Shown here: positions 1-55,350 of the stretch, one piece after another
Position numbering within the stretch: the first letter of the stretch is position 1
Layout of the letters: every line of letters starts with the position of its first letter
Assembly (NCBI GenBank): GCA_946699065.1
Contig: CAMPDV010000258.1
Coordinates: 124,001-188,000, forward strand
Source of the DNA: Loxodes magnus
Taxonomy: Eukaryota; Ciliophora; Karyorelictea; Loxodida; Loxodidae
DNA: 64,000 bases
Reading direction: 5' to 3'
The notes under the pieces: model-generated
Databases searched by the model: none
Told to the model about the DNA's origin: nothing
The model's input: the letters and a program-made list of their open reading frames with translations, nothing else
Made by a program: the position numbers and the translations under genes

Positions 1-3000
1 TTACTTAATTATTTTACTATCTAGTAGTTTATTTAAATTGTCTTACAGTCTTAATTTATTTTAAAATATTATACTATCTAGTTTTTTTAAATAATCTTAC
101 ATTCTTCATTTAAATTAAAGCTCTACATCCCACTTAGATATTTTAATGTCTTACTATCTTTATATTTTAAAAAGCATTACTATCTTATGTATTTTTAAAA
201 ATTAATACTATCTAATTTTAAAATTAAATATCTTACTTCCTAAATTATACTTATAAAGGTACTTCCTAATGATGAAAATATCCCACTTCCTAAAAATAAA
301 ATTAAGAATCTTACCCACTATATAAGACTTAAAAATAGATGCCTTCTATAAAATATAAAAATATCCTACATTCTAATAGTAATTATATCATCTTACTATC
401 TTATTATTATTTTAATTCTTACTTTTCACATAATTTTATTATATCTTATATTCTTGATATGTCGTATTTACTTACCACCTACTATATCAAACAAAGTTAC
501 CACCTTTAGCAGATAGTGTATCTTACAAGCTTGAAATTTAAATTTCTTACTACCTGGATGTTATATATTATTAGTACATTCTGGATTTTTATTAAATGGC
601 ATACAATCTTGCATTACTTTTAAATTTTATTACAGTCTTAAATTTATTTATTGAAGCTTACTTTCTAAATTAACAATAAAGAATTTTACGTTCTGATTTC
701 TTTTAAGCTTTCTTACAAACTAGATTGTAATAAAAAATTACCAAAGTCTGTGTTTTTTAAATTAATTACTCTCTTGAAATAATTTTATATATTTTACATG
801 CTATAGCTATTTATATTACTTACAGCCTAGTTTATTTCTTTAAAATAGTTACACTCTTTATTTATTTAAAGTTTGTTACGGACTAATATTTCAATTTCTT
901 ACAACCTAATTTTATTCTTTAATAGGCTTACATCCTATAATAATAAAGAGCCTTACGATCTATGTATAATAGAAGGTTTTTACTTTCTAAATATTGCTCA
1001 AATATTACAATCTATTTTTGTACTAAAATGCTCTACATGCTTCTTTTACTTCTAAATTTCTTACGATCTTTTAGGAGTTTAAATGCTATACGAGCTGCTT
1101 TTTATCTTAAATATCATACGAGCTAGTTATAATTTAAAATTGCTTACAGGCTAATTTTTATTTAAGTGACTTACGTTCTAAAAAATGAGTTATATAATGT
1201 ACAATCTTGTGTGTTTTATAATGATTTACTTCCTAAATAATAAAAGATTTATTACAAGCTTCTTAGCATATTGATTATCATACAATCCTCTTTATATTGA
1301 AAATATTTTACAGTCTGTTAATATAATTAAAATGACTTACATTAGACTTAATTCTGATTCTTTCATTCCACTTATATATTTAAGCTGTCTTACAGGCTTT
1401 TTTATATTATAATATATTACGTTCTTGAAACATATTAAACGCTATACAGACTTGTATAAATTAAAAATATCTAACATACTAAATGACTTTAGTACAGTTA
1501 CTATCTTTTTATTTTATGACCTAGTTACGATCTATTTTATTTCTTACTTCCTATGCTTAAACATTACTACCTATATACGTATTTATTTACTTCCTATTTT
1601 ATTTAAAAGAATTAAATTTCTTACCACCTTATATTATAATTTTACCACCTATAGTAAGTTTATTGTACAAGCTATTTCGCTTGCTTTTTACCTTCTATTT
1701 TATAAGTTAATTTATCTACCACCTATATTTTAATTAGATTACAAGGATCTTTATTATTATTCTTACGACCTTTGCTTTTTAATATTTTACACTCTTTACT
1801 TAGTTTAATACAATCTATATCTAAGATTTAACATTCTTTTTTTATCTGCTTACTCTCTATATTTTAATTATGTACATGCTGTTGTAATTCTATTTACTGC
1901 CTTGTTCATTTTGATAGATCTTACATGCTAATCTTGAAATTTTTTACCACCTTTATATTTAAATAATTACCGCCTTTATTAGATTAAATATCTCTTACAT
2001 ACTTTATTTCAATTCTTTTACTTGCTGCATTTAAAAATTAGACTCTTAAATTCAAGACTGATATTATTATTCTCCTCTTTTTCAAATTAGTTGAAGATCT
2101 ATTAGTTTTACAATTCTTTTCCGTTAAGATTCAACTTTTAAAATTCCTGCTAGATTTCATATTATTCTTCTATTTTTTTCTTAGCTTGTTCTATTGTGCT
2201 ACTCAGATCTATTTATATTTTAATTGTCCCTCCATTTTTTGTGCTAATATCTATGTCTTTAATTTCTTTTATTTATAACTAATACATCATAAAGTTTCTT
2301 ATATGCTCTTAAATAGTTTCTGCTTAATTATTGTAGTGGAATATTTAAAACATTTACTTCTAGTATTTGTTCTTTTAATATAGATCAGATATATTTTTAA
2401 CAAATTCAATAAACTCCCTTATTATCTAGTAGTTCTAAGAATCATACTAACTTAGTATGCTTTTTATAGTTTCTAAATGCTATCTTTATTCAGTAAACTT
2501 TTAATGGATTTCTTATTCATCTTTTTCTATTTGTCAGAGTCTTTATTGCTAAATCTACTAGATCAAGTTTATCATAGCCTAGGAGCTATCATTTATTTCA
2601 TACTTATATCTTTAAATTTCATACAAAGCCTTTTAGTATTCTTCGTTAAGCTTTTTTAAGCTTTCCGATAGAGATTCATCTAAAGTAACTTGCTATTCTT
2701 GCGCTTTTTTGAACTGATTTTACTTAATCTAATCTATTGCTTCTTCTGCTATTACTATATTATGACTTTTATGCTATTATGAAAAAGCACATAAATGACA
2801 TATTAGTTAAAACTCACTTTTGCATAATAAACTTTTAGGATAATTATGCATCTAGCAAATATCGCTTTAATTGGATTGCTATCCTGGAATAAATGCTAGT
2901 TCTAGATCATAAGGACTTTGCTTAGTAATTTATTAGCATCAAGGACAAATTATCTAATTCTTCTACTATTCTAGCTATAGAGTGCATTCAAAGCACATTA

Positions 3001-3085
3001 TATGCTCACAGTTTAGTTTCTTAGGCAAGTTTCTTCCTTTATTGAACTCTTTGCTACAATTAAAGCAAGAATTCATTTGCTGCAT
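1..3085 (-). CDS. TRIM-like RING/B-box protein with microexon array, left-arm copy, 3' end cut by the window edge
   Basis: This is the mirror copy of the gene at 51,638-55,184. The start ATG is at 3,083-3,085. RING, B-box and coiled coil occupy about 3,085-2,040, and the microexon array runs from about 2,000 to beyond position 1, where it shows as TTAC-NNN-CT motifs about 27 bp apart. Differences from the right copy that I could place in the central part fall in intron interiors rather than in the 3-nt exons. Near 235-290 this copy has one extra complete unit (intron plus 3-nt exon). Short standard-code ORFs on the plus strand here are antisense shadows. Confidence 0.75.
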
Positions 3086-3821
3086 TTATTATTTTAGCAT
3101 ACTCTCTTTTAAGCATAATTAGGGAGTTTAACTTAAACTCCCTAAGGTTTAAGGAAAATTATAAAATAATAAAAATGAATAAAGAAATAGGATTTATAGC
3201 TTATTAGACCAAATCTAAGCTAAAAGTACTTTTATATTATAACTTTAAAAGAAAACCATTTAGAGCAAAAATTTCTCCTTCCCTTTAAAATCATTTTCAA
3301 ATAAATTCTGCAAGTCATGTATTCTCATTACTAAGCTAGCAACTTGCTTATCTTCTAACTTTAAGTAATAGTTCATTTCATTTAGAGCTTGAAGCTTATG
3401 GACTTTAATAAGTTTAATCTATTACATAGTTAATTAAAATAAATTGATAGTTAAATTATACAAATAAAAATTATTCTTTAAGACAAATATAAGAAAGATA
3501 AATCTGGGAAATCTCTTTAAAGTAACTTATAGCCAAAACGATAATCACTGCTACTTAAGGATAGCTGATCAGCTCATAATTTAAGATAGAAATAAGTTAA
3601 CTAAGTATTAATTAGATGGATGCTGATTTTAAATTTTTAAGCTGCTTAAATGGTTGTTAGGCTTCTAATTTTCATGCTAGATAAAGTTTCGAAATGAGGG
3701 TAGTATTTTAAATAATTCTAGAGTCTTATTAATATTATGAGGTTTTCTCTATTGAAAGTTTCTGTATACTTAGTGAAAAGATATTAATAGGTATAAAAGT
3801 AGTTGTAAGCAATGCTTATAA

Positions 3822-3905
3822 GCATGTGTGGCCGAGCGGTCCAAGGCGCTAGACTCAAGTTCTAGTGGGAGAAATCCCGCGTGAGTTCAAATCTCACCGC
3901 ATGCA
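3822..3905 (+). tRNA. tRNA-Leu (CAA)
   Basis: 84 nt with a 7-bp acceptor stem (GCATGTG with CGCATGC), a long variable arm as in tRNA-Leu, loop CTCAAGT giving anticodon CAA, a TTCAAAT T-loop and discriminator A. Identical copies lie at 29,288 (+) and 50,898 (-). The CCA end is not encoded. Confidence 0.95.
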
Positions 3906-4920
3906 TTTTATACATATTATTAAAATTAAATTTAAAGCTTATAATAATTATGCTTTATTACAATAAACATATATGATGTAAAAGGCAAATTTTAGAATTA
4001 TGATTTTTTGCTTCATATCTTAATATTTTTATATCAAGGCTTATTAAAAATTACACTTCATAGTTTCTTGTTTCTATATGCTTTACTTAAATCTCAAATT
4101 CTCTAAGTTTTATTATTTTATATACTTTTTATCTTTTTTTAAATATAATTGATTTGAAACAGAGCTGTGTATTTCAAACTAAAGCACTTTAAAGTGCATA
4201 AATTCTTAAATTATTCTCCTGAAGCGACTTAGATAAACTTCTTCTATTCCCTCTTATTTTTAATCTTTTTTATAAAATAAATTTTTGATTGCTAATGAAT
4301 TATAAAAGTTTGATATATGTCTCTTAATTGAACAAAATAAATTATCTTTTATTCCAACTACATTTAAATTAAACAAATATATCTTTTTATATTATATACT
4401 TAAATTAATTTTATCTGGGATATTCTTAATCTAATTATTTAACCATATTATTACTAATAAAGCTCTTAAATTATTAATCAAAATATATTTCATATATTAG
4501 TCCTTAAATAAAGCGAAATAGCTATTTTTTCTTAAAATTAGTGGTAATTAAAATTAGAAAAATTCTTTAAAATTTGTTATTATTATCTTAGTTTTTATAG
4601 GCTAGGAGTATTTTTTAATTTTATTATTAATTTAATTTTCTATACCTTACCTAAAATAATTTAGCTTTGATATATTCCTTTTATTATTACTTAATTTAGT
4701 CCAAAACATTTGATAAACATTTAGTTTTATTTTATTTCTGTTGTTTGAATTGATATTTTTATAAACTTTTATTTATAGATATCGTTTCTTTCAAGATAGA
4801 ATATTATATAGCTATAAGAGGAAAATAAATTACTAAAATAATATAAATAAAATAGAATTATAGCTATTAATCATAATAGATCAGATTAAATATTACTATC
4901 AACTGTTTTTAGTTAGCATC
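3906..4920. other. Stretch without a recognised gene (left arm)
   Basis: AT-rich sequence between the tRNA-Leu and the GTPase remnant. I see no ORF with convincing residue composition and no RNA gene. Its mirror is about 49,830-50,810. Confidence 0.4.
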
Positions 4921-4924
4921 TCAT

Positions 4925-5960
4925 TTAGATACTCAAAAATTTATAGAAAACGAAGGATTTGACAGTAAAGCAAGTGGTTTATCTAATGTAATAAGCAACT
5001 GAAAAAGAAGAAAAGAAGCTCCTTTAATTTAGTTTATTGATACTCCTGGATTTAGTGGTATTGAAGAAAATGATAAAGAAGTAATAACTTAAATTAGTAA
5101 TTGCTTAAGCTAACTTAATGAGGGAATAAGCATCGTACTTTTATGTATTTCAGCAGAAAGAGAAAATATACCTTAAAACTTTAGTTGAAACATGATACAG
5201 TTAGAAGAAGTTTTAAATAGATGTAACATCAAATATGTAAAAGTATGCTTCACTAAAATGGACATGCTTTCTTAATAAGAAAACTATAACATTTTTTAGA
5301 CTCTTGTCTAATAAATGTTCACAACTATTTAGTAAATTATGAGTGTAAAAGTTAGCTAAAAAATAATATTTTATAAGCATAAATTAGAAGATGATGGACT
5401 AGATTAATTGCTATAAGAAATGATAAGCTTCTATGAACAGAGTTAAGCCATATTAAAAATGTTTATATTTACTCATAATATTCGAATTATAAAAGTAGAA
5501 ATAAAATTAGACAAAGAAGTTTTAATAAAATTATAACGCTAATAAGTAAGAAAAAAGTAAAGAATATTTAGATTTGAAAGCATAAATGAAAGAATTATTT
5601 GATATATAGAGTAAAACAGACTATGTTAAAGAAATCTAATAGTCTCCACTAACTATTACTTTGGAATAGATTCAATAAAGAGTAGAAAAGTTTTAACAAG
5701 AAAACTAATAAATTGAGGTGTAACAGGTAAACTGATTGAGAAATCCAAAATGAGGGTTCTTGATAATTAGAAGATGAGTTTAGAGGTATGAAAATTTATA
5801 GGAATGAGAATTGTAATTCTATATATAGCTAGAAAAGTAAATTAAATACATTTCTAAATCTTATATAACGAACAAGGCTAGCAATTATTACGACTGAAAG
5901 AAAAAAAACAAATTAAGATATTTTGATTTATTTTAGATATTAAACGACCTTACTAAATAT
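4925..5960 (+). pseudogene. Decayed AIG1/GIMAP-type GTPase, left-arm copy
   Basis: From about 4,945 this closely matches the intact gene at 30,274-31,521: the G3 motif DTPG and the G4 motif TKMD (from CFTKMD) are readable with TAA/TAG as Gln and TGA as Trp. The 5' part that holds the P-loop in the intact gene is replaced by unrelated AT-rich sequence. After the G domain the coiled-coil part loses a continuous frame. The right arm carries the same damaged version, so decay preceded duplication of the arm. Confidence 0.7.
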
Positions 5961-6712
5961 ATCCCATACTGCTTTAGTCAAATTTTAATTTCAATTATTC
6001 TTTTATAAAAACCAAACATCGAAGATTTAGTCTTCAAGTCTTTGTATATGTTTGAATGGGAAATAATAATTAAAGCCGTCTTAAGTCGAAGCCTTATTTT
6101 AAAGTAGCTTTAGATAGAAATTAAATGATTTTTAAGACATAATCCCTTAAATCTTAAAGATGAATCAAATTGCAATACCTCGCATTTTAGCGGTTATTTA
6201 ATTTGGGTATTTTACAAAAACAATCTCTGAACTTTCACCTAAAAGTGTTGATTTCCCTAATGATATTTTCTAACTAATCTAATTTAACTTATAGAGAAGT
6301 TTTATAAAAATCCTCTTTAATACTTAAAAAAGTTCTAAAATTTTTGGCTTTTGTTTCTAAACCTTCTAATCAAAGATTTGAAGATTTTAATACAGATTTT
6401 CTACTTAATCAATCTTAAAAATATCCTACTATATTTTATTTAAATCTGCTTAGTTATTCCTTGATATTACTATCATTTTATAGATCTATACAAAATGCTA
6501 AGGAATTTTCTTAAAACTTTAAAGTATCTAAGTTAATTTTTCTTGCTTACTAGCAAGAAAAGCCAAATCTAATCTAGAATTTATTTTAGAATATCAGTGA
6601 TAATTTTATAGTAAATAGCTATACTTAATTTCGTAATCATTTAAAAGCAATCATTTCACATAAATAAATTAGAAATAATTGAATGTAGAATTAAGATTTT
6701 CTGATGTTCATC
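5880..6712 (-). CDS. Unknown protein, left-arm copy (boundaries uncertain)
   Basis: Mirror of the plus-strand reading frame at 48,010-48,850. The coded sequence has a protein-like composition with no recognisable domain. It runs into the antisense of the GTPase remnant, so the 3' end is not defined. Confidence 0.35.
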
Positions 6713-6719
6713 TTATTTC

Positions 6720-8190
6720 TTTCTTTTTAATTAATACCAATTTCAAGTTTTATTTAGCATTTCATGTATAATTTTCTTAGAATAATTTCTGATCCAAACT
6801 CTTGGAAGGAAACAGAAAATGTATTATAAGCTACTATTCTAGTAAATTAAATGCTAGATAATTATAAAAGAAAATTGTATTTAGGAAAATTGCTTCATTT
6901 ATCATTTTATTCCAATTTCTTAAAATTTCTCTACATTTTAATTAATTTTAAAAGAGCTTAGACTTTAATTAAAGGAATTATATTTAGAAAATGTAAGTTA
7001 GTATAAAGAGAAGGTAATATAAGTGAAATAGGGGTATTTAATTTGAAGGTTATAATTTAGATTTTGCTTTAAAAATAAAAAAATACTAGATAAGTATTAA
7101 TGGATAAATGTTTAAATAGTGCTAGAATATAAAATAAAGATATTTATTTACTTTCACCAAAATATTTAAATTCTTAATTAATATAAATTAGAGACTAATA
7201 AAAGGAATTATTTATTTAGATATCTAAATGCTTTATTAAAGGAATTATGATACAATCTTCATAGTAATTTCATTGCTAACTATTTTCCGTAAGACATAAA
7301 TGAAAGTTACTATGTAAAGCAATTTTATTAGTTCTTAGTGATAATTAAAGTAAAGGCTTTATATTTTGATATAATAGATTTGAGTTTGTACTAAATTAGA
7401 AATATAATTGATTTAAATAACCTCTATCTATGATATATCTCCTTTATATGCTATTAACTTTAATTATTACTTAAATGTATGCTTTCTATTATTATTTAGA
7501 ATTTATTTTCTTCAAACATATTAATAAACATTACTTAAAGAAAAAAGCTTGAAATCTGAGCTTTTTAAATATTCTATGTAAGTTTAATTTCATGAATTTA
7601 CACTAAAATTTGAAAGTTAAGAGAGGCAGATCTCTCATTTATTTAGATTAAGAAAACTTAATAAATCTTAGGAATTAGTTGTAATTATAGGTAGATATTT
7701 TTAGCATTAAGCATAAGTGAATAAAAAGAAATATTACAATTTAAGAATTATTATCTATTAGAATAAAAGAATCAGCTAGATAATAAACTTTCTTATTATA
7801 CCCTTTATAACACTAAAATAGATATTTTATTTATATTAGCCTTACCTTGCTATCTATAAAATACACTAAATAGGGTTTAAGATCTGTTATACAACCTTTT
7901 GCCTATTTATTTTGGTTTAATTATATTTTAGATATATCTTTATCTAACTATTTTATATAAATCCTTATAATTTATTATTTTTATTTATGTTTGGCTTGTT
8001 TCAATTTTTCTCTTTTAAGATCTAAAAACTAAGGATAATTATCCTAGATCATTTTAAGATTAAGGTAGCTTTTCTCTTTTTACTAGAGAACTTTTGAGTT
8101 ATTAATCTTTTCATATATAAGACAATACAGCTTATTACTTAGTTTATTTAAAAATAGTTATTGTTTTATATAAAGAAACCGCCTATAGCA
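6720..8190. other. Stretch without a recognised gene (left arm)
   Basis: AT-rich; I found no reading frame that starts and ends cleanly. Its mirror is about 46,540-48,000. Confidence 0.35.
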
Positions 8191-8192
8191 TT

Positions 8193-11100
8193 TCAAGAGT
8201 TTTCTTCTTTGCTCTCACTAATCTTCAAGTCTTAGAAAGATTATCCTTCACTCTATATAAATACTTACTTCTTTTATGCTGAGTTTCTAATCTATCTCAG
8301 AACTAAATTTTTCTATAATTTCCTTATTTTTTTCCCAAATAATTATTTTTTCACAAGATAATTCTTAATTAGGGTCGTTAAAAGTGATGTCATTTCTTTT
8401 AATGTTTTAATTTTCGACAAGAGTATCTTCATTAAAAGAATTTAAATAATTTTAGCTTCGTTCTTTTCCACATTTTTACTAATTAAGCAAATTTTTCTAA
8501 ACTAAATCCTATTTTATTTTCTTAATGGTTTGCTTGTACTTAGGGTTACTCTCTATGTCGTAATTTTGAATAACCTTTCTTAACGATTGCTATATAAAAA
8601 TCTTACTCTAGATATTTAGCTTAATTAGCTGCTATAATTTTATCTATATTATGTGTCTAATAAACTTAGCATTAAAGCTAATATAACGAAGCATAATAAA
8701 CAGATTAGAAGAAATACTCCATAAGCCGTGCCTTGTATTGATTAAAATCTTTAGCTGATATAATTTTCTTTATCACATCTATATCTATAGTCTATGTCTA
8801 GTTTCGTATTTTGAATGCAGTTTTCAAAACTTTCAGGAAATAAATCTTCACAGCCAAGCATATAAATGCTTATTAACCCATGCAAAAATAAACAGCTGGG
8901 AAGCATATTTAAGGCTTTTTAGTGGATATTTATTTAAGTGAATGTTTCCCATTTAAAATACCTCTTTAATAAAAATTTATCTGATAGCAGTCTTAAAAGA
9001 GAAGCGGCAAAAACGCAAAAGTTAAGGATAGGAATTCCTGTCGAGTAAAGCTAAACAGCAAATATAATACTTAGAATCTTAGCATAATTAAACGAAATTA
9101 TAATCTTAGGATTTATTTTTATTTTGTTGAATCATTTACTTAATCTATTTTGTCTTCTTTGTATACTTTAAATTAACTTACTTAGAGGTCATTGCACTAA
9201 TAAATTTCATAAAGCTGGATAAAATATCAAAAAAAATAGTGTTAAAGTAATCTAGCGTCCAATGTCAATGTACCACATACGCTCAAAGTCGTCATAATTA
9301 TTACGTAAAGATTTGCTATTTGTATCTTTGTTTATTCAATAAGGTAATTAGGCATTTACAATAGTTTTCATCAACCCAACATTAAAAAATTCAATGAAAA
9401 ACACAATCGATAAGAAATTATGTGCTTCCTAAATACTCTCCTAAATTTGAAAATATTTGGAAATAAATTTTATAATTTTAAAGGAAATGAAATTTACTAT
9501 TATGATGAGTATCGAAGAAAGATATATCAAATTCTATTTAGTCATATAACGATCTGCATAATGCTAGCATCATCTCCCTATTTCGTTATTTTCAAATGCA
9601 TCTTTTTAATAAGAACATCAGCAAAAATAAGCATTCGATTCCTTTTCATAATTTTTTTAAGCTTCCTCAAAGGTATAAAAGTAGCTAAACTCTCTACTTG
9701 TCCACATATTTTAGCAATCTGATAGACTCGGAAGTTCGTAATATTATTAATAGCTTATCACCTAAAATATGCACAAGGAAATCATTGCAACAATAGATAC
9801 TGAAAACATAAATAAAGATACCAACATCTTTTTTCTTCTTTTTATTTCAAGATTTTCAAATTTGATATCTTGAGGTTCTACCCAGTCATTATTTTAAACA
9901 TTAAATTTGTCTATAAAACTTTAGAATTGTTAATCCTTTATTTAACATTTCTTATATCTCTAATATTATTTAAAAAGATTTTTACTATGTTCATGTTCAA
10001 AAACTACGAACACTACATTGTCATTCAACTCATCGTATAAATTTGTTCTTATGATGATTGAAAGTATTTTTCTTCCTACTAAATCGGTTTTATAATTTTG
10101 GAACTGAATATTTTTTTAATTTGCTTCAAGAGTCTGAATTCTTTCGTTTATATTATGTTGCTTTTAATAAAGCCATATTAAGTTATTCGTTTTCTTTAAA
10201 ACAATTATTTGCTTTACTTTTCCAAATCGATTTTACATTATTTGTTTGAGGTTTTCAATGTCAATTCTTTATTCTTTCTTTAGTTTCAATTGCACAGTAA
10301 AGTTAGAAGCTAACTTTCTTCTCTAGTTTCAATTCTAAATGAGTAACTTAAATCTGATTTTATAAAAGATAATTGAAAGTAGAAGAATTAGCTGATTGAT
10401 GATATCTACTATAATGATATCTTTCTTGAATTGATTATTATAGTCAATATATCCTTCTTCTAATTTCTCTTGCTAATGACTTGCTTTATATTAATAATAT
10501 TCTGTATCATTAAGCTTATTTTCATAGAAGTAAACACTATCTTCATCCAATCATAATATTGATGATCCTGTAGTATATAAGTTAGTTATTGTGATCTTAT
10601 CAAAAAAACTAGATTGATAGTCGTTTAATCAACCGCTTCATTCTCCCCCTCTATAGTTATTTGCAATAGAAACTATGCTAATAGCACTCATAATTAAAAA
10701 AGTTAAACAGATAAACTTCAAGAAGTCAAAATAAAGATCTATCTAAAAAGTATTTTCGTCTTCATTTTTAAATCCCAAAACAAAGATTTTCCTTCAAGAC
10801 CATTTAGGTTTTTAGGCATAATTTTAAAAGATTTGATTAGAATTTTCCATTTGAGAGGAATTATTTAATCTTTACTGTTTCATTCATTTCTTTTAAATAC
10901 TTTTTTTGTCAGATTTTTTCCAAACTAAGTAGATAACTATTGCTGAAGAGATGGTAATTGAAGACAATATTAGACATAAAATACCATTTAAAGGAATTTT
11001 TCTACGTGTATTATATACATTTTAATTATACCCTTATTTTAAATTTAAAATTTGAACGAATTTTTGCTATAAATAAGTATCAAAGGAGCCGCAATCTCCA

Positions 11101-11882
11101 TAATCTCAATTACATGCAGGAGTGTAGCATCCTCATTAGCAAAAAGAATCATTCATAAAAGGAAAGGGACAATAGCATGTATCTAAGCAGTCACCATCAT
11201 CTCAGTTGCATTGAATATTGTTACACTCGATATTACAATGTCCATCTTACAACAAAAAGGCTATTTTATAAGTTTCACAATTACATTCAACACCTCAGCA
11301 TTCGTCACTATCCATGCCACAAGATGGATTGTTACATATTGTTTCACAATGTCCATTATTAGCTAAAAGAAAGCAAGCTGTCATATCTAAACAATTTGAT
11401 TACTCATTTCCATTACAATCTCCTTAGTCATAATTACATTCTGCATAATTACACTAAGGCTAACAAGCACCGTTTCCTAAATAATAGTTTTCACATTGAG
11501 GCATACATTTTTGACAGTCTAAACCATCAAAATTGCATGCTTCAACTTAGCAAGGGATCTAGCAAAAGCTGTCATTAATTCAGGATGAAGAGCATCCTTC
11601 ACTACATAAATCTTAACAATCTCCACCATCAAATTAGCACTCAGTCGAGTTGCATTAAATATCGCAATATCCATTACCAATATTTAAAAAAAGGCACGAA
11701 TAATTGCATGTTCTACAATCCCCTCCATCCACCAAGCATTCATAATTAGAACATTACAACTAACAAGTCTGATCTTCAAGAAATGAATTATTGCAACCGC
11801 TTCTGCACTATGACTCTACTTTCAAACTTAGCATGAAAAGCAATATTGGTATAAAAATCTATGCTTGGTTTATAATTTTCAT
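8193..11882 (-). CDS. LNR-OSCA/TMEM63 channel-like protein, left-arm copy
   Basis: Mirror of the right-arm gene (42,853-46,532; see there for domains). Start ATG at 11,880-11,882, stop TGA at 8,193-8,195. Both short introns and the slippery heptamer are conserved. In the last exon the left and right copies differ mainly at third codon positions (GAT/GAC, ATC/ATT, GAA/GAG, AAT/AAC), a sign that the short C-terminal exon is translated. The copy is about 10 bp longer than the right one overall, including 9 bp after the last membrane segment and at least one small indel in the cytosolic tail, so its C-terminal region may be frame-shifted. The right copy is the better reference. Confidence 0.7.
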
Positions 11883-12790
11883 ATTTATTAAGAAAATAAA
11901 GTCTATTAAAAGTTAATATCATAGCTATATTTAAATCTTAACTAATAAATAAACTTTTATATTTCTTTCAGCTTTATAACTATAAACAATAGAGAATTTA
12001 TGTTTACCTATTTTTTCTTGGATTTTTTTATTTTATTTAATTAGTTAGGCTTTAAAAATGTATAGTTGTAGAAAAATAACTAAAATTCCTAAACTAATAA
12101 AGAAATTAACTAGGTATTCATAGCATTCACTATTAACAAGGATAATTAAGAGCAAAACAGTTGGAAATAATATAATAGAAGCATCAAAAAGATAAATAAA
12201 AGCATAAAATTTAATTATATCTTACACTCTAAATTCTTATTTGTTTGATTATTTTAAGTTTATATTAGCTACTCTTTAGAAAAATACCTTATATTAGATT
12301 CAAATAAAATGTAGGATTATATGTTTTTAGCTTTTTGAATAAAATTTATAAAAGAACCGAAAAATAAATTATTTGATAATATGAACTTGGAAATTTAAAT
12401 TTAATCGAAATCTTCCTACTATAAGAGAATGACAAGTGTTAAAAATTTATAAATCTAAATGTAAGAAGAAAGACCAAATAATATAAATGAGAAGGAAAAT
12501 ATTTCTTGCTTTTGTTTAAAAGTTTATCTAACAAATAAATTAAATAAAAACTAATGTAAAACTTAACTAAAAATAGTAAATTTAGAATTTATACTTTTAA
12601 TAACTAAGTATATGAAATGATTTAATTTAAGAATTATTATTTAGTTTATATTTAGTTATTATTTTAATTATAAGGGCTATTATATAACAGATATCTTAAA
12701 TTAAACATTGGCTAAATTGCTTTTCATTCTATTCATTATTTTAATTTTCTTTAAATTAAAATATAAATCAGGTCAATGTTTATGTTCATC

Positions 12791-14172
12791 TCATAAACTA
12801 AGGAAATTAGCTTTTAATATTATAGTTAAATTTTATATTTTAAGAAAAAATAATTATATTAAAATATATATGCACTGCTTAATTATTATGCTTATATAAT
12901 TCCCCAACTATTTATTAAATTTAATTTAAGTTATTCAGAGAAGTGATTGTTTTCTTAATAGTTTCCTACTCCCTATCCAACTAATAGTTACTTGAACTCT
13001 TGGTGGTCTGTTTCTCCAGTCACTTTTAAGTCTTCGCAGTGGATTGCTCCGAATATTGCTTTTCTTCCTATAAATATTCCCACTGCTTCCCCAACTATTT
13101 ATATGTTTAATTCTAGTATTTTCTATTTTAATATACTTCCTCTAAAAATATTTCTTATAATTATATATCTTTAAGAAAAAACAACATTTTTTGCTAATCA
13201 CACTTAAATATTTACTAGTTGATTCTTAATCTTACAGTCAAAGTGTCTTTGCATTAAATATAATAAAGGTATATTTAATATCATTGTATGATATTAAAAA
13301 TCATTAAAAAACTATTAAAAATTTCTTTTTACGTTATTACTCTCATAGAAAATTCAATAGATAATTAGACTATAACCAAAACTCTTTACTAAATGCTTTT
13401 TTAACTTAATTAAATTTTTTCTTAGAGAACATGAAGTAAAACATTGTTTGATGCTGCTTTTAAAATTTTAAATGCTTATATCATTTAATTTATTCCTTTT
13501 ATATCTTGCCAATATAAGCTTATCTATTTAAAATATTACTAATTTATTATTATTTAAGCATTATGTAAAAGTATTGCTCTATTTAAAAATTTCTATTTTA
13601 GATTATTTTAGCTGTGTTTTTTGTTTATCTTACATACATTTTTACTTATGAAATTTAAATTTCTTCTATATATTTTAGAACTTTATCTTCTATTATAAAA
13701 GCTCTGCTTTATTTTAAATCTTACAATTTTAGATTTTTATATACTTTAAATCTCAATTTTTTAGATTCAATCTGATTACTTAACTCTTGATTGAAACATA
13801 TAGCCTTGATTACTAGAATAATTCTATTATTTTCCTATTTTTCTCTTTAATCTAATATATTATTATGTTTATAAAGCTTAATCCAATTCTTTATATGGAT
13901 TTAAATTATTTTACAAATAGCTCTGAATTAAGCTAATAAAAATACAGTGAGATATAAGTTCTTAGCTACTTAATAAAAGAGGTTTAATTTAATGATTTTT
14001 AGTGGATTAATAGCATACTTTAAATTTAATTTATATAGCTATATCAATTAATTAAAGCTTAGTTGTAATATCCTTATTACTTAGTTAACTTAAATTTATA
14101 TAGAAGTATATTTAACTTTAAGCTATTTTATAAGGTTATTACTTTATATTTAAATAATTTAAAAGCTTTCAT
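12791..14172 (-). pseudogene. Shortened copy of the large coiled-coil gene (left arm)
   Basis: Mirror of the 656-residue gene at 39,925-41,937, with start at 14,170-14,172 and stop TGA at 12,791-12,793. About 955 bp of the middle and 3' coding part present in the right arm is missing near 13,190, and a 187-bp foreign segment flanked by a 16-bp direct repeat sits near the 3' end. Another 150 bp or so is extra near 13,270-13,420. It cannot encode the full protein. Confidence 0.6.
12900..13102 (-). repeat. 187-bp insertion flanked by a 16-bp direct repeat
   Basis: TTCCCCAACTATTTAT occurs at 12,900-12,915 and again at 13,087-13,102; the right arm has it once. The enclosed DNA is clearly richer in GC than its surroundings. 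On the minus strand it reads as an uninterrupted, protein-like segment containing EAVGIFIGRKAIFGAI and DLKVTGETDHQEF. This vaguely resembles the actuator region of P-type ATPases, but the match is weak. It looks like a captured gene fragment or duplication-mediated insertion. It has no terminal inverted repeats. Confidence 0.6.
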
Positions 14173-18883: not shown

Positions 18884-19307
18884 GTAAGAGCATTTAATAA
18901 TATATAAAGATAGTATATATTATAAAAAGACAAATAGTTAGTAAGATAATTAGATGAATATCTAGATGGCTATACATTTTAAATAGTTATCTTCTGATAT
19001 GATATTAATAAAATATATATAGTACAAGGTATTGAGATATTTGTCTAGTATATAAATATTTAAAACATCTAGTCTGTAATTATTTTTAAATATATACAGT
19101 AAGAAGGTAAGATCTTAAAATTATCTAGAAGGTAAGATGTTTTTAAACTAATCAGATAGTATAATTTTTAAATATATATATCAATTGGTAAGATATTTAA
19201 ATATTTATATAGAATGTGGGATATCTTTAATTTTCTCATATAAAATTAGATTGTTAGACAAGTTTAATATATAAGAACGTAAGCATTATAATAAAAAACT
19301 AATAGGA
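18884..19307 (+). other. Third microexon-type array, decayed
   Basis: AG-NNN-GT junctions recur at roughly 25-bp spacing on the plus strand: ata, tta, aag, ata, aat, att and aac lie between AG and GT. Longer putative exons of 63 and 27 nt are also multiples of three. Some junctions have lost their consensus (GTGGG, GTTAG, or no GT). No RING/B-box region precedes it, so it is probably a remnant of another copy of the array gene. It runs directly into a fragment similar to the 3' end of the zinc-knuckle gene at 22,110-22,340. Confidence 0.6.
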
Positions 19308-41937: not shown

Positions 41938-42852
41938 ATTATACATAAACATTGGCCTGATTATATTTTAATGTAAAGAAGCTAAAATTAAAATAATGAA
42001 TAGAATGGAAATAATTTAGACTTAAGTTTTAATTTAAGTTATTTATTATATAATAGCCTTTATAGTTAAAATAATAACTAAATATAAACTAACTACTTAT
42101 TCTTAAAATAAAACATTTCATATACTTAGTTATTAAAAGTATAAATCCTAAATTTACTATTTTAAGTTAAGTTTTACATTAGTTTTTATTTAATTTATTT
42201 GTTAGATAAACTTTTAAACAAAAGCTATAAATATTTTCCTTCTCATTTATATTATTTGGTCTTTCTTCTTACATTTAGATTTATAAATTTTTAATACTTG
42301 TCATTTACTTATAGTAGGAAGATTTAGACTAAATTTAAATTTCCAAACTTATATTATCAAATAATTTATTTTTTCGGTTCTTTTATAAATTTTATTCAAA
42401 AAGCTAAAATTATATAATTATGTATTTTATTTGAAATTAATTGAAGGTAATTTTCTTAAAGAGTAGCCAAGATAAAATTAGAAGAATCGTATAAATTGGA
42501 ATTTAGAGTGTAAGATATAATTAAATTTTATTCTTTTATTTATCTTTTTGATGCTTCTATTATATTATTTCCAACTATTTTGCTCTTATAATTCCTTGTT
42601 AATAGTAATTGCTATGGATACCTAGTTAATTTTTTTATTAGTTTAGGAATTTTAGTTATTTTTCTACAACTATACATTTCTAAAGCCTAACTAATTAAAT
42701 AAAATAAAAAAATCCAAGAAAAAATAAGTAAGCATAAACAGCTCTATTGCTTATAGTTATAAAGCTGAAAGAATATAAAAGTTTATTTATTAGCTAAGAT
42801 GTAAATATAGCTATGATATTAACTTTTAATAGATTTTATTTTCTTAATAAAT

Positions 42853-46532: not shown

Positions 46533-46539
46533 AAGGCTA

Positions 46540-48000: not shown

Positions 48001-48009
48001 AGAAATAAG

Positions 48010-48850
48010 ATGAACATCAGAAAATCTTAATTCTACATTCAATTATTTCTAATTTATTTATGTGAAATGATTGCTTTTAAATGATTATGAAATTAAGTAT
48101 AGCTATTTACTATAAAATTATCACTGATATTCTAAAATAAATTCTAGATTAGATTTGGCTTTTCTTGCTAGTAAGCAAGAAAAATTAACTTAGATACTTT
48201 AAAGTTTTAAGAAAATTCCTTAGCATTTTGTATAGATCTATAAAATGATATTAATATCAAGGAATAGCTAAACAGATTTAAATAAAATATAGTAGGATAT
48301 TTTTAAGATTGATTAAGTAGAAAATCTGTATTAGCATCTTCAAATCTTTTATTAGAAGGTTTTGATACAAAAGCCAAAATTTTAGAAATTTTTTAAGTGC
48401 TAAAGAGGATTTTTATTTTTGAAAAAAACTTCTCTATAAGTTAAATTAGATTAGTTAGAAAATATCATTAGCGAAATCAACACTTTTAGGTGAAAGTTCA
48501 GAGATTGTTTTTGTAAAATACTCAAATTAAATAGCCGCTAAAATGCGATGTATTGCAATATGATTCATCTTTAAGATTTAAGGGATTATGTCTTGAAAAT
48601 CATTTTATTTCTATCTAAAGCTACTTTAAAATAAGGCTTCGACTTAAGATGGCTTTAATTATTATTTCTCATTCAAACATATACAAAGACTTGAAGTCTA
48701 AATCTTCGATGTTTGGTTTTTATAAAAGAATAATTCAAAAAAAATTTGACTAAAGCAGTATGGGATATATTTAGTAAGGTCGTTTAATATCTAAAATAAA
48801 TCAAAATATCTTAATTTTTTTTTCTTTCAGTCGTAATAATTGCTAGCATT
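48010..48850 (+). CDS. Unknown protein, boundaries uncertain (right arm)
   Basis: From an ATG at 48,010 one frame reads as ordinary protein (for example CDVLQYDSSLRFKGLCLEN and SKSSMFGFYKRIIQKKFDQS) until it enters the antisense of the GTPase remnant. The real 3' end is unknown, and an upstream exon in another frame is possible. No motif recognised. The left arm has the mirror copy. Confidence 0.4.
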
Positions 48851-49815
48851 GTTCGTTATATAAGATTTAGAAATGTATTTAATTTACTTTTCTAGCTATA
48901 TATAGAATTACAATTCTCATTCCTATAAATTTTTATACTTCTAAACTCATCTTCTAATTATTAAGAACCCTCGTTTTGGATTTCTCAATCAGTTTACCTG
49001 TTGCACCTCAATTTATTAGTTTTCTTGTTAAAACTTTTCTACTCTTTATTGAATCTACTCCAAAGTAATAGTTAGTGGAGACTATTAGATTTCTTTAACA
49101 TAGTCTGTTTTACTCTATATATCAAATAATTCTTTCATTTATGCTTTCAAATCTAAATATTCTTTACTTTCTTCTTACTTATTAGCGCTATAATTTTGTT
49201 AAAACTTCTTTGTCTAATTTTATTTCTACTTTTATAATTCGAATATTATGGTATTTTATGAGTAAATATAAACATTTTTAATATGGCTTAACTCTGTTCA
49301 TAGAAGCTTATCATTTCTTATAGCAATTAATCTAGTCCATCATCTTCTAATTTATGCTTATAAAATATTATTTTTTAGCTAACTTTTACACTCATAATTT
49401 ACTAAATAGTTGTGAACATTTATTAGACAAGAGTCTAAAAAATGTTATAGCTTTCTTATTAAGAAAGCATGTCCATTTTAGTGAAGCATACTTTTACATA
49501 TTTGATGTTACATCTATTTAAAACTTCTTCTAACTGTATCATGTTTCAACTAAAGTTTTAAGGTATATTTTCTCTCTCTGCTGAAATACATAAAAGTACG
49601 ATGCTTATTCCCTCATTAAGTTAGCTTAAGCAATTACTAATTTAAGTTATTACTTCTTTATCATTTTCTTCAATACCACTAAATCCAGGAGTATCAATAA
49701 ACTAAATTCTTTTCTTCTTTTTCAGTTGCTTATTAACTAGATAAATTGTTTGCTTAATTACCAAATCCATCGCTTTCTATAAATTTTTGAGTATCTAAAG
49801 GAGATGCTAATTAAA
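48780..49815 (-). pseudogene. Decayed AIG1/GIMAP-type GTPase, right-arm copy
   Basis: Mirror of 4,925-5,960. The G-domain part with DTPG and TKMD is recognisable; the P-loop end is replaced and the coiled-coil part has lost its frame. This copy has an additional deletion and divergence near 49,720-49,760 relative to the left arm. Confidence 0.7.
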
Positions 49816-49829
49816 AACAGTTGATAGTA

Positions 49830-50810
49830 ATATTTAATCTGATCTATTATGATTAATAGCTATATCTCTATTTTATTTATATTATTTAGTAATTTATTTT
49901 CCTCTTATGGCTATATAATATTCTATCTTGAAATAAACGATATCTATAAATAAAAGTTTATAAAAATATCAATTCAAACAACAGAAATAAAATAAAACTA
50001 AATGTTTATCAAATGTTTTGGACTAAATTAAGTAATAATAAAAGGAATATATCAAAGCTAAGATATTTTTGATAAGATATAGAAAATTAAATTAATAATC
50101 AAATTAAAAAATAATCCTAGCCTATAAAAAACTAAGGTAATAATAACTAATTTTAAAGAACTGTTCTAATTTTAATTATCACTAATTTTAAAAAAAAATA
50201 GCTATTTCGCTTTATTTAAGGACTATTATATTAAATATATTTTGATTAATAATTTAAGAGCTTTATTAGTATGAATATGGTTAAATAATTAGATTAAGAA
50301 TATCCCAGATAAAATTAATTTAAGTATATAATATAAAAAGATATATTTGTTATTTAAATGTAGTTGGAATAAAAGATAATTTATTTTGTTCAATTAAGAG
50401 ACATATATCAAACTTTTATAATTCATTAGCAATTAAAAATTTATTTTATAAAAAAGGTTAAAAATAAGAGGGAATAGAAGAAGTTTATCTGAGTCGCTTC
50501 AGGAGAATAATTTAAGAATTTTTGCACTCTAAAGTGCTTTAGTTTGAAATACACAGCTCTGTTTCAAATCAATTATATTTAAAAAAGATAAAAAGGATAT
50601 AAAATAATAAAACTTAGAGACTTTGAGATTTAAATAAAGCATATAGAAACGAGAAACTATGAAGAGTAATTTTTAATAAGCATTTATATAAAAATATTAA
50701 GATATGAAGCATAATATCATAATTCTAAAATTTGCCTTTTACATCATATATGTTTATTGTAATAAAGCATAATTATTATAAGCTTTAAATTTAATTTTAA
50801 TAATATGTAT
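49830..50810. other. Stretch without a recognised gene (right arm)
   Basis: Mirror of 3,906-4,920; AT-rich, no supported feature. Confidence 0.4.
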
Positions 50811-50814
50811 AAAA

Positions 50815-50898
50815 TGCATGCGGTGAGATTTGAACTCACGCGGGATTTCTCCCACTAGAACTTGAGTCTAGCGCCTTGGACCGCTCGGCCACACATGC
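50815..50898 (-). tRNA. tRNA-Leu (CAA), right-arm copy
   Basis: Exact reverse-complement copy of 3,822-3,905, anticodon CAA. Confidence 0.95.
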
Positions 50899-51637
50899 TT
50901 ATAAACATTGCTTACAACTACTTTTATACCTATTAATATCTTTTCACTAAGTATACAGATACTTTCAATAGAGAAAACCTCATAATATTAATAAGACTCT
51001 AGAATAATTTAAAATACTACCCTCATTTCGAAACTTTATCAAGCATGAAAATTAGAAGCCTACAATTATTTAAGCAGTTTAAAAATTTAAAATCAGCATC
51101 CATCTAATTAATACTTAGTTAACTTCTTTCTATCTTAAAAAATTATGAGCTTTATCAGCTATCCTTAAGTAGCAGTGATTATCGTTTTGACTATAAGTTA
51201 CTTTAAAGAGATTTCCCAGATTTATCTTTCTTAAATTTGTCTTAAAGAATAATTTTTATTTGTATAATTTAACTATCAATTTATTTTAATTAACTATGTA
51301 ATAGATTAAACTTATTAAAGTCCATAAGCTTCAAGCTCTATATGAAATGAACTATTACTTAAAGTTAGAAGATAAGCAAGTTGCTAGCTTAGTAATGAGA
51401 ATACATGACTTGCAGAATTTATTTGAAAATGATTTTAAAGGGAAGGAGAAATTTTTGCTCTAAATGGTTTTCTTTTAAAGTTATAATATAAAAGTACTTT
51501 TAGCTTAGATTTGGTCTAATAAGCTATAAATCCTATTTCTTTATTCATTTTTATTATTTTATAATTTTCCTTAAACCTTAGGGAGTTTAAGTTAAACTCC
51601 CTAATTATGCTTAAAAGAGAGTATGCTAAAATAATAA

Positions 51638-54600
51638 ATGCAGCAAATGAATTCTTGCTTTAATTGTAGCAAAGAGTTCAATAAAGGAAGAAACTTGCCT
51701 AAGAAACTAAACTGTGAGCATATAATGTGCTTTGAATGCACTCTATAGCTAGAATAGTAGAAGAATTAGATAATTTGTCCTTGATGCTAATAAATTACTA
51801 AGCAAAGTCCTTATGATCTAGAACTAGCATTTATTCCAGGATAGCAATCCAATTAAAGCGATATTTGCTAGATGCATAATTATCCTAAAAGTTTATTATG
51901 CAAAAGTGAGTTTTAACTAATATGTCATTTATGTGCTTTTTCATAATAGCATAAAAGTCATAATATAGTAATAGCAGAAGAAGCAATAGATTAGATTAAG
52001 TAAAATCAGTTCAAAAAAGCGCAAGAATAGCAAGTTACTTTAGATGAATCTCTATCGGAAAGCTTAAAAAAGCTTAACGAAGAATACTAAAAGGCTTTGT
52101 ATGAAATTTAGAGATATAAGTATGAAATAAATGATAGCTCCTAGGCTATGATAAACTTGATCTAGTAGATTTAGCAATAAAGACTCTGACAAATAGAAAA
52201 AGATGAATAAGAAATCCATTAAAAGTTTACTGAACAAAGATAGCATTTAGAAACTATAAAAAGCATACTAAGTTAGTATGATTCTTAGAACTACTAGATA
52301 ATAAGAGAGTTTATTGAATTTGTTAAAAATATATCTGATCTATATTAAAAGAACAAATACTAGAAGTAAATGTTTTAAATATTCCACTACAATAATTAAG
52401 CAGAAACTATTTAAGAGCATATAAGAAACTTTATGATGTATTAGTTATAAATAAAAGAAATTAAAGACATAGATATTAGCACAAAAAATGGAGGGACAAT
52501 TAAAATATAAATAGATCTGAGTAGCACAATAGAACAAGCTAAGAAAAAATAGAAGAATAATATGAAATCTAGCAGGAGTTTTAAAAGTTGAATCTTAACG
52601 GAAAAGAATTGTAAAACTAATAGATCTTCAACTAATTTGAAAAAGAGGAGAATAATAATATCAGTCTTGAATTTAAGAGTCTAATTTTTAAATGCAGCAA
52701 GTAAAAGAATTGAAATAAAGTATGTAAGAGATATTTAATCTAATAAAGGCGGTAATTATTTAAGTATAAAGGTGGTAAAAAATTTCAAGATTAGTATGTA
52801 AGATCTATCAAAATGAACAAGGCAGTAAATAGAATTACAACAGCATGTACATAATTAAAATATAGAGAGTAAGCAGATAAAAAAAGAATGTTAAATCTTA
52901 GATATAGATTGTATTAAACTAAGTAAAGAGTGTAAAATATTAAAAAGCAAAGGTCGTAAGGATAATAATAAAGATCCTTGTAATCTAATTAAACTATAGG
53001 TGGTAGATAAATTAACTTATAAAATAGAAGGTAAAAAGCAAGCGAAATAGCTTGTACAATAAACTTACTATAGGTGGTAAAATTATAATATAAGGTGGTA
53101 AGAAATTTAATTCTTTTAAATAAAATAGGAAGTAAATAAATACGTATATAGGTAGTAACGTTTAAGCATAGGAAGTAAGAAATAAAATAGATCGTAACTA
53201 GGTCATAAAATAAAAAGATAGTAACTGTACTAAAGTCATTTAGTATGTTAGATATTTTTAATTTATACAAGTCTGTATAGCGTTTAATATATTTCAAGAA
53301 CGTAATATATTATAATATAAAAAAGCCTGTAAGACAGCTTAAATATATAAGTGGAATGAAAGAATCAGAATTAAGTCCAATGTAAGTCATTTTAATTATA
53401 TTAACAGACTGTAAAATATTTTCAATATAAAGAGGATTGTATGATAATCAATATGCTAAGAAGCTTGTAATAAATCTTTTATTATTTAGGAAGTAAATCA
53501 TTATAAAACACACAAGATTGTACATTATATAACTCATTTTTTAGAACGTAAGTCACTTAAATAAAAATTAGCCTGTAAACAATTTTAAATTATAACTAGC
53601 TCGTATGATATTTAAGATAAAAAGCAGCTCGTATAGCATTTAAACTCCTAAAAGATCGTAAGAAATTTAGAAGTAAAAGAAGCATGTAGAGCATTTTAGT
53701 ACACAAATAGATTGTAATATTTGAGCAATATTTAGAAAGTAAAAACCTTCTATTATACATAGATCGTAAGACTCTTTATTATTATAGGATGTAAGCCTAT
53801 TAAAGAATAAAATTAGGTTGTAAGAAATTGAAATATTAGTCCGTAACAAACTTTAAATAAATAAAGAGTGTAACTATTTTAAAGAAATAAACTAGGCTGT
53901 AAGTAATATAAATAGCTATAGCATGTAAAATATATAAAATTATTTCAAGAGAGTAATTAATTTAAAAAACACAGACTTTGGTAATTTTTTATTACAATCT
54001 AGTTTGTAAGAAAGCTTAAAAGAAATCAGAACGTAAAATTCTTTATTGTTAATTTAGAAAGTAAGCTTCAATAAATAAATTTAAGACTGTAATAAAATTT
54101 AAAAGTAATGCAAGATTGTATGCCATTTAATATAAATCCAGAATGTACTAATAATATATAACATCCAGGTAGTAAGAAATTTAAATTTCAAGCTTGTAAG
54201 ATACACTATCTGCTAAAGGTAGTAACTTTGTTTGATATAGTAGATGGTAAGTAAATACGACATATCAAGAATATAATATATAATAAAATTATGTGAAAAG
54301 TAAGAATTAAAATAATAATAAGATAGTAAGATGCTATAATTACTATTAGAATGTAGGATATTTTTATATTTTATAAAAGGCATCTATTTTAAGTCTTATA
54401 TAGTGGGTAAGATTCTTAATTTTATTTTTAGAAAGTGGGATATTTCATCATTAGAAAGTAAGATATTCAATTAAAAAAATAGATAGTAATGCTTTTTAAA
54501 TTATAAAAATAGAAAAACATTAAAATATCTAAGTGGGATGTAGAGCTTTAATTAAATAAAGAATGTAAGATGATTTAAAAAATGTCTAGATAGTATAATA

Positions 54601-55184
54601 TTTTAAAATAAATTAAGACTGTAAGACAATTTAAATAAACGACTAGATAGTAAAATAATTAAGTAATTTATATAGGTAATTTATAAAAGCTTATAAGATC
54701 GTAAGCCTTTAATTATTAAAAGAAAGTAAGATAATTTACTAAATAGATAGTAATATAATAAGTATAAGAAAGTAAGATTATACCTAAAAAGGTTGTAAGG
54801 GTATAAGATCTAGAATGCATTATATTATTTTCAGAGTGTAAGTTATTTAATTTTAGGGAGTGCGTTATTAATTTATCAGAAAGTAACTAATTATATGAAA
54901 ACAGAATGTAAAGTTTAAACAGAGAATGTAATAAGTTAAAAAGTTAGATGGTAAATATTTAAAATTCAATAAGAAAGTAAGAAATGTAAGAAATGTAAAA
55001 AAGCTTGTATGTCTATTTTTATTTTAGGGGGTGAGAATATAAAATTCCAGAATGTAAGATCTTAGAAATCTTAATGTTGTAAAATAAATCTATCTAAATA
55101 TAAAGGCAGTATATTTATCTATGAAAGAATGTAATATAAGCTAAATATAGGTGGTATTTATCTTTAAAAATAGCTGCAAATTGA
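51638..55184 (+). CDS. TRIM-like RING/B-box/coiled-coil protein whose 3' half is coded by a microexon array
   Basis: ATG at 51,638. Residues 7-50 form a C3HC4 RING (C7, C10, C26, H28, C31, C34, C47, C50), typical of E3 ubiquitin ligases. A B-box type 2 follows (about 77-108; C-x2-H-x7-C-x2-E-x4-C-x2-C-x5-H-x2-H), then a long coiled coil: the RBCC order of TRIM proteins. An intron of 23 nt (52,521-52,543) is needed to keep the coiled-coil frame (KIEEQYEIQQEFQKLNLNG). This frame runs to 52,723 and there enters an array of about 90 introns and mostly 3-nt exons. The array encodes about 135 further residues, beginning CGVCTQKYQCHPCEACGG, and ends GCT GCA AAT TGA at 55,182-55,184. The C-terminal part would be the substrate- or ligand-binding region, with a possible extra zinc site from its CxxC pairs. 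That the array is spliced is inference from sequence alone. Confidence 0.7.
52724..55173 (+). other. Microexon array: about 90 introns of 16-30 nt around exons of mostly 3 nt
   Basis: The motif AG-NNN-GTAAG recurs every 20-30 bp. Between AG and GT I count about 80 exons of exactly 3 nt; the others are 6 (three times), 12, 24, 27 (twice) and 30 (twice) nt, so the phase never changes. Intron interiors are very AT-rich, while the 3-nt exons have roughly twice their GC (about 36 percent in the first 58 triplets). Typical introns begin GTAAG, GTAAA or GTAT and end TAG, AAG or CAG, like the 16-29 nt introns elsewhere in the window. Every codon is split after its first base. Confidence 0.75.
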
Positions 55185-55350
55185 GAAGCTTGAAAGTTAC
55201 GTAGAAATTTTATTATTTTACTCTTATTTTACTAATATCATAAAATAACTATGTTTCAATTATAATTTTGAAAACGATTACATTAACGTAAATTTATTAT
55301 AAAAATACAATGAAATTTTCAATAAGTTAATCCAGGATTCTAGATATATT

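Follow-up and report, generated by a model that had tools for sequence, protein, structure and literature searches.

A RING/B-box gene of the ciliate Loxodes magnus whose 3' part may consist of serial one-codon exons separated by tiny introns

The RING/B-box gene and the array downstream of it

The region described here is a 64,000-nucleotide (nt) window of the ciliate Loxodes magnus (contig CAMPDV010000258.1; C258:124,001-188,000), and the element in question is a long array of tiny putative introns that directly follows a RING/B-box gene. Genome searches were made in one genome, an assembly of 705,730,643 bases; the published macronuclear assembly of L. magnus is given as 706 Mbp, with 231 Mbp of tandem repeats (PMC11441545). 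The gene, its array and a mirror copy within a large inverted repeat are laid out as follows, with positions given as those of the window.

51638..52678, plus strand: RING/B-box/coiled-coil open reading frame (ORF), read with TAA and TAG as glutamine and TGA as tryptophan, ending in SLEFK plus one base
52679..55173, plus strand: array of tiny putative introns, about 92 in number, with 91 internal exons of which 84 measure exactly 3 nt; the preferred reading splits codons 1+2
55174..55184, plus strand: putative last coding exon, with TGA at 55182-55184, 3 codons past the last intron with one base carried
1..2043, minus strand: mirror array, cut at the window edge, 76 introns parsed and 69 exons of 3 nt
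about 3085-2044, minus strand: mirror RING ORF, entering the mirror array carrying one base
1..12926, no strand: left arm of an inverted repeat (right arm 41803-54666), 12.9 kb, 95.6% identical

The genetic code is karyorelict-like (NCBI table 27), with TAA and TAG encoding glutamine and TGA encoding tryptophan inside genes, the last of these having been missed in the sequence-only reading from which this work started. An in-frame TGA (51782-51784) sits between two RING cysteines, and TGA and TGG exchange in both directions between paralogous zinc-knuckle genes at 21202-21984 (+) and 32323-33120 (-), whose CCHC knuckle appears Gag-like by eye. TGA is also found inside CxxC and in the CNWDxGDC motif characteristic of LNR repeats. 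Likely genes picked with TGA open comprise 2,552 codons, 27 of them TGA and 16 TGG. As all three stop codons are sense codons here, an open frame alone is no proof of coding, and the putative stop role of TGA is deduced from its position, which in 10 of the 20 arrays parsed is 1-11 codons past the last intron.

In the ORF product the Pfam B-box scores 25.4 bits (1.6e-5), above its cut-off of 24.1, and the RING scores 22 bits (2e-4), below its cut-off of 27.3, yet with an alignment that spans the whole model; the coiled coil was called by eye. The putative order of RING, B-box and coiled coil (by eye) would resemble that of TRIM-like (RBCC) proteins, and relatives carry Kelch or ubiquitin-like C-termini, but the C-terminal tail of the window clade has no Pfam match and would be encoded by one-codon exons. 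A protein search for homologues returned 500 candidates, none at E 0.001, and a protein search of IMG/VR gave no match. Pattern scans of genome and viral contigs revealed no such array at the places examined, some dense loci being taken for tandem repeats.

The periodic recurrence of AG-NNN-GTAAG downstream of the RING ORF, on which the sequence-only reading was built, is real. Between 52,720 and 55,180 the motif AG-N3-GTA occurs 77 times (77-79 copies in the array, depending on the exact bounds); 200 dinucleotide shuffles yield a mean of 6.5 copies and never more than 13, and each of the other AG-to-GT spacings from 0 to 15 is represented by 1-9 copies. A flat semi-Markov splice model, seeded with AG-N3-GTA sites and given no preference for frame or 3-nt length, finds 88 introns and 87 internal exons over 52,470-55,260, 70 of the exons being 3 nt long. 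The final parse model was trained on seven arrays, and its prior gives preference to exons of 3 nt and of multiples of three; it divides the array into 92 introns and 91 internal exons, 84 of them 3 nt long, three of 6 nt, one of 12, one of 27 and two of 30. The proposal that the exons are multiples of three is upheld for all 91 in this favouring parse and for 80 of 87 in the flat one. With only such exons allowed, the window arm loses 9.4 of its 168 log units and the mirror arm 3.6 of its 149; a ban on exons of exactly 3 nt, by contrast, takes away 113 and 99, respectively.

The array had been placed at 52724..55173 and does extend to 55,173, but it starts earlier, with two further introns upstream of 52,724: an intron at 52,679-52,697 is followed by CAA, an intron at 52,701-52,720 and then TAT. 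The first of these, GTCTAATTTTTAAATGCAG, is the counterpart of GTAAGATTTTTTAATATATAG in the paralogue L266, and because the two introns sum to 39 nt they leave the phase unchanged. A mirror copy of the array had also been noticed, and it occupies positions 1-2,043 of the minus strand within the inverted repeat. Ahead of the array four substitutions separate the two arms, 3 within the first 883 nt of the RING ORF and 1 in the remainder, all synonymous (codons read by hand), whilst within the array there are no changes among 213 bases labelled as the last three of introns (labels from the window arm only). The arms also differ by two whole intron-plus-triplet units, near 54,450-54,520, and one window-arm unit is without the acceptor and donor that are still present in the mirror arm.

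Splice signals, paralogues and phase

The introns of the window array are 14-52 nt long with a median of 23 nt, 81 of the 92 measuring at most 25 nt and 88 at most 30 nt. Their GT-AG ends are a requirement of the splice model, and at sites picked by the motif alone A is found at +4 (0.79) and G at +5 (0.44), two features outside the search motif. G at -3 occurs in 1 of 78 array sites versus 0.11 of other AG in the window, and the last two triplet bases (N2N3) have a GC content of 0.24 versus 0.13 in intron interiors (P 3.5e-4). Among the 83 introns no longer than 28 nt, positions +9 to +11 form a T-run with 155 T of 249 (maximum 124 in 2,000 shuffles), followed by A at +13 at a frequency of 0.67. 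Since the branch A of Stentor introns lies at a near-constant position from the 5' site (PMC9505925), this T-run plus A may, by analogy, be the branch region. Intron length is divisible by three in 25 of 92 cases in the window array, 59 of 180 in the paralogous array L287x and 33 of 90 in L266. Across 17 copies the GT and AG columns are variable at 50 of 390, compared with 556 of 1,408 interior columns (P 2e-25).

With the tiny introns of other ciliates (15-16 nt in Stentor) the array shares its length class, GT-AG ends and a U-run plus A at a near-fixed distance from the 5' site (PMC9505925). Published Loxodes introns have a mean of 19.3 and a mode of 17 nt, with 93% at most 25 nt (PMC11441545). 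Elsewhere in the window introns are sparse, 9 being predicted in the likely genes outside arrays, whereas the array would have one for nearly each codon; the array introns are also somewhat longer than these tiny introns of ciliates.

The genome contains 134 matches to the RING/B-box query; 40 of these paralogues were fetched roughly by score, with some near-duplicates skipped, together with 700-nt flanks of 20 more. Arrays of 26 to 180 introns are present in 18 of the 40 (L257-L271, L273, L283, L287), and the 20 flanks contain no array (at most 3 motifs each); for the 22 array-less paralogues the splice model gives 2-4 introns per 3.1 kb. The check on relatives that the sequence-only reading had proposed is answered mostly in its favour, in that the architecture recurs and both triplet order and splice sites are conserved. 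RING identity to the query is 79% for L265 and 56% for L266, and a tree of 42 RING regions has at least 2 changes of array presence (2-3 in bootstraps), with which a single origin may be compatible.

Four of the array-less paralogues (L272, L274-L276) continue, by eye, into a Kelch-like region. In L272, Kelch_3 scores 26.8 bits, above cut-off, the best E of 5e-8 coming from a model below its own cut-off. The Kelch-like region occupies the position of the array in the window clade, but array peptides have no Kelch match, and replacement of the one by the other is thus only a guess. L283 encodes a Pfam ubiquitin domain (5e-13) followed directly by 26 introns and 25 exons, all of 3 nt. The largest array, L287x, contains 180 introns, 174 exons of 3 nt and 158 copies of AG-N3-GTA (none of the other spacings between 0 and 12 exceeds 9), and its pre-array part is ubiquitin-like by eye only. 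Under the flat prior, exon length is a multiple of three for 134 of the 149 exons in L287x and for 20 of the 22 in L283. The L266 and L268 arrays alternate 3-nt and 12-nt exons and encode QAVGQ-like repeats; the flat parse has four 12-nt exons in L266 and seven in L268, and these two-intron units expand in frame.

In fourteen of the 20 parsed arrays the reading frame arrives with one base carried over, that is in phase 1+2: the mirror arm, L257-L262, L265-L268, L273, L283 and L287x. The other six (the window arm, L263, L264, L269, L270 and L271) have small ORF indels relative to L265, single-base except for some in L270; they fall mostly in A or T runs (52544-52549 in the window copy) and are base errors or real frameshifts. 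The claim that the RING ORF enters the array in 1+2 therefore holds for the mirror copy and the other arrays of the 14, including from the ubiquitin domain in L283, but not for the window copy as assembled. There the A-run at 52,544-52,549 has 6 A and in the mirror copy 7 A; the ten copies of the motif divide into seven with 7 A (the mirror arm, L257-L260, L262 and L263) and three with 6 A (the window arm, L264 and L270). In the mirror copy and in 9 of 15 other copies (compared with L265) there is no indel before the array and the ORF reads straight through. The 6-A run would be either a base error in the homopolymer or a real frameshift. As copies with 7 A run straight into the array carrying one base, the isolated intron at 52,521-52,543 that had been proposed to join 52,520 to 52,544 is superfluous and was dropped: 7 of the 9 other motif copies have 7 A, so a one-base A-run difference suffices and is the more probable explanation.

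Ten of the 20 arrays (L257, L259, L261, L262, L265, L266, L267, L273, L283 and L287x) are both entered and left carrying one base and meet TGA after 1, 3 or 11 codons; a carry of 0 or 2 bases puts the first TGA 14-276 codons downstream. The TGA that had been noticed shortly after the last intron, at 55,182-55,184, agrees with this, lying in phase 1+2 three codons downstream. Phase 2+1 is the entry phase of only L269 among the 20, its ORF having an indel. An unsplit reading, with NNN as whole codons, was rejected: it gives 0 Gln in 68 codons of 3-nt exons and a z of -0.04, compared with a median of 2.39 for held-out coding windows, 5% of which score 0.70 or less, and 14 of 20 arrays enter carrying one base.

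Coding signal and competing explanations

If the triplets are codon parts split 1+2, shuffling the order of the exons destroys codons, and this is the basis of an exon-order permutation test. In phase 1+2, L287x has 34 Cys codons versus a mean of 20.9 and a maximum of 30 in 2,000 permutations (likelihood P 0.013), with no signal in 2+1; by a motif-only method it has 32 Cys versus a maximum of 28 in 5,000 permutations (likelihood P 0.0036). The Cys-rich product that had been predicted for this phase is in keeping with these values. For the window array in 1+2 the parse-based test gives P 0.019 (Cys) and the motif-only test P 0.03 (Cys) and 0.04 (likelihood). An array on C10 (L319), away from the RING matches listed, has an upstream ORF that enters with one base carried (by eye) and a codon-order P of 0.0003 for 1+2 and 0.35 for 2+1. 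No significant order signal in 1+2 is seen in L283, L273, L320, L322 or L323, and L321 has P 0.07.

Comparison between paralogues provides a further line of evidence. Triplet order scores 27.3 for the window against L268 (maximum -12.0 in 100 shuffles) and 23.3 against L266 (maximum -7.8). The spliced tails of L265 and L266 align over 115 residues with 57 identities and have the blocks CGACTQ, CGGSRNH and WECCKC in common, and their RING regions are identical at 182 of 290; the other two phases also align about half identical, so this tail identity alone cannot fix the phase. Across 17 copies the variability of the triplet positions is 0.30 for N1, 0.42 for N2 and 0.38 for N3, N2 being the third codon base in 1+2. 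Between clades the ratio of non-synonymous to synonymous variation (pN/pS) is 0.57 for 1+2, 0.81 unsplit, 0.74 for 2+1 and 0.45 for RING. Of three array peptides, two have no Pfam family at E 0.1 and the third matches DUF4860 at 0.041, below cut-off; none matches Kelch, and the best PDB hit, an AN1/A20-type zinc finger, is not significant (E 0.035).

With a probability of roughly 0.86, the 3' part of the RING/B-box gene is coding sequence made of serial one-codon exons spliced by intron definition. A spliceosomal GT-AG intron, in most cases 16-27 nt long, would interrupt nearly each codon behind the first base. Every such intron would be defined on its own by a 5' GTAAG, a T-run at +9 to +11, an A near +12 to +14 and a 3' AG preceded by a base other than G. 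Removal of some 92 introns would join the one-codon exons in frame and yield a Cys-rich C-terminal tail of about 125 residues, with TGA three codons after the last intron. Such an architecture would be shared with the paralogues and probably with many other loci. The spacing, the splice-site constraint, the gain and loss of units, the agreement of phase and stop in half of the parsed arrays and the order-dependent codons were computed here. The idea of intron-defined splicing of single-codon exons fits these comparative tests, the conserved splice sites among them.

Several results weigh against this interpretation. As assembled, the window copy has a single-base indel just upstream of the array and reaches it with a carry of 0, which is the unsplit phase and not 1+2, and 10 of the 20 parsed arrays have no demonstrated clean frame from end to end; the mirror arm, whose exit is cut off by the window edge, is counted among these. 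L258, L260 and L268 enter in phase and then, according to the parse, change phase inside the array; L264, with its upstream indel, changes phase inside as well. For the window array the first order test (likelihood) gave P 0.48 at a power of 0.74 and the parse-based likelihood P is 0.12; for L266 the likelihood P is 0.20 in 1+2, L323 fails the codon test (P 0.91), and in the motif-only test 2+1 also reaches P 0.03-0.04 in the window family (0.03 for the window). Between clades the raw identity of triplets (0.636) is on a par with that of introns (0.635 and 0.614), and between the arms the triplets diverge no less than intron interiors. Within the window clade (12 copies) pN/pS is 0.78 for 1+2, 0.41 unsplit, 0.26 for 2+1 and 0.50 for RING, and within the L266 clade (5 copies) it is 1.04, 1.71, 0.59 and 0.27, so that phase 2+1 fits the within-clade polymorphism better; these ratios count against strong selection on recent copies. 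The expectation that triplets are conserved while introns drift is hence borne out only in part, since order and splice sites are kept between paralogues but the triplets are not strongly conserved in recent copies or between the arms. Finally, the assembly is rich in tandem repeats, so part of the genome-wide pattern matches may be satellites.

Much of this would also be expected if the array is spliced but its triplets are a mere frame-neutral remnant, the whole being a segmented intron kept removable by a spliceosome limited to tiny introns, with the encoded residues hardly mattering. Conserved splice sites, triplets that evolve no more slowly than introns between the arms and are weakly constrained within clades, and the two-unit length difference between the arms all suit such an explanation, but it leaves unaccounted for the order-dependent Cys codons, the codon order in the C10 array, the between-clade pN/pS below 1 and the peptide blocks kept between clades, and we regard it as unlikely. 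More improbable still is a non-coding array, either a degenerate minisatellite or a set of AGnnnGTAAG binding sites, downstream of a gene that ends at a TGA near 52,710. A genome so rich in tandem repeats, the near-identical units of some arrays and frames not shown to be clean in half of those parsed would agree with it, but frame, phase and stop agree in 10 of 20 arrays, among them the array that a Pfam ubiquitin domain immediately precedes. Moreover, intron interiors in the window and L287x arrays are near background (0.41-0.42) while GT and AG persist, and the codon information in triplet order, the avoidance of GAG and the T-run likewise speak for serial coding exons rather than a minisatellite. 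Removal of the units from DNA, in the manner of internal eliminated sequences (IESs), appears barely credible. Ciliates do eliminate DNA segments, and units of about 23-28 bp are near the smallest quoted Paramecium IES of 26 bp (PMC11441545), but the assembly is apparently macronuclear, so that eliminated DNA would be gone, the unit ends are GT-AG, and no classical IESs were detected in L. magnus (PMC11441545).

Spread of the arrays, related systems and significance

A three-unit pattern has 34,551 matches in the genome, a count that includes overlapping units and plain tandem repeats, versus 659 for a reversed control, which suggests that there are many arrays genome-wide. Five further places (L319-L323), picked among the first of the matches listed, were read. 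In L319, L320, L321 and L323 the intron interiors are 0.86-0.91 identical and the triplets of the same pairs 0.40-0.48, versus 0.35-0.41 by chance, whilst L322, like the window array, has no near-identical introns; pairwise identity of intron interiors in the window and L287x arrays is the near-background value given above. Two of these places and a further array within the window are:

G000:C2:2786154-2786623: array L323, introns almost identical from unit to unit, triplets different, not coding-like in 1+2
C41:7710-8164: array L321, introns almost identical from unit to unit, triplets different
18884..19305 of the window, plus strand: short third array, partly degenerate, 3 chains with 11 introns and 7 exons of 3 nt, beside no RING match among the matches listed

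Copying of whole units alone would equalise triplets and introns, and so the introns seem to have been copied or homogenised independently of the triplets, with old arrays probably retaining little but splice signals. Repeated triplet blocks (L268 versus L266; the window arms) indicate that whole units are gained too. From sequence comparison we infer spliceosomal removal of the introns, translation of the joined mRNA and growth of the arrays by copying or homogenising of introns between codons.

Besides the inverted repeat (1-12926 and 41803-54666), the window has other duplicated blocks with tRNA-Leu and tRNA-Arg genes and with three genes named by eye, one for LNR repeats, one for an AIG1-like GTPase and one TMEM63-like. 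At 38465-38626 a 9-bp tandem repeat of 18 copies reads (KEE)n inside a minus-strand ORF.

No gene with a serial one-codon-exon layout was found in the literature searched. The micro-exon genes (MEGs) of Schistosoma likewise have many consecutive, very short in-frame exons of 3-81 bp, but with long introns of up to 5 kbp (PMC10526429) where array introns are mostly 16-27 nt. The Loxodes arrays differ further in being runs of tens of exactly 3-nt exons in one phase (174 in L287x), in their ciliate host and in the RING/B-box N-terminal part.

Introners are families of introns that spread by copying. A possible resemblance lies in some arrays with near-identical introns beside unrelated neighbouring triplets; the difference is that the arrays would place one at each codon of one gene, always in one phase, with no inserting element or target site identified.

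If the interpretation as serial coding exons is correct, the spliceosome would perform about 90-180 accurate consecutive joins of one-codon exons, with no room for exon definition or exonic enhancers. This would set a new lower bound on exon context, offer a natural test system for pure intron definition and reveal a route by which introns multiply until there is one per codon. Published Loxodes introns were called from HISAT2 mappings (PMC11441545). As a 3-nt exon cannot anchor an alignment, short-read aligners and gene finders should hardly see array genes at all, and the gene class may be absent from annotations. Each unit being frame-neutral, the skipping, gain or loss of any subset would still give an intact protein. 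More tentatively, the arrays could represent a genome-wide Loxodes gene class in which copied tiny introns colonise each codon after its first base, young arrays having near-identical introns and old ones only the signals, and they may generate protein variants in multi-copy families.

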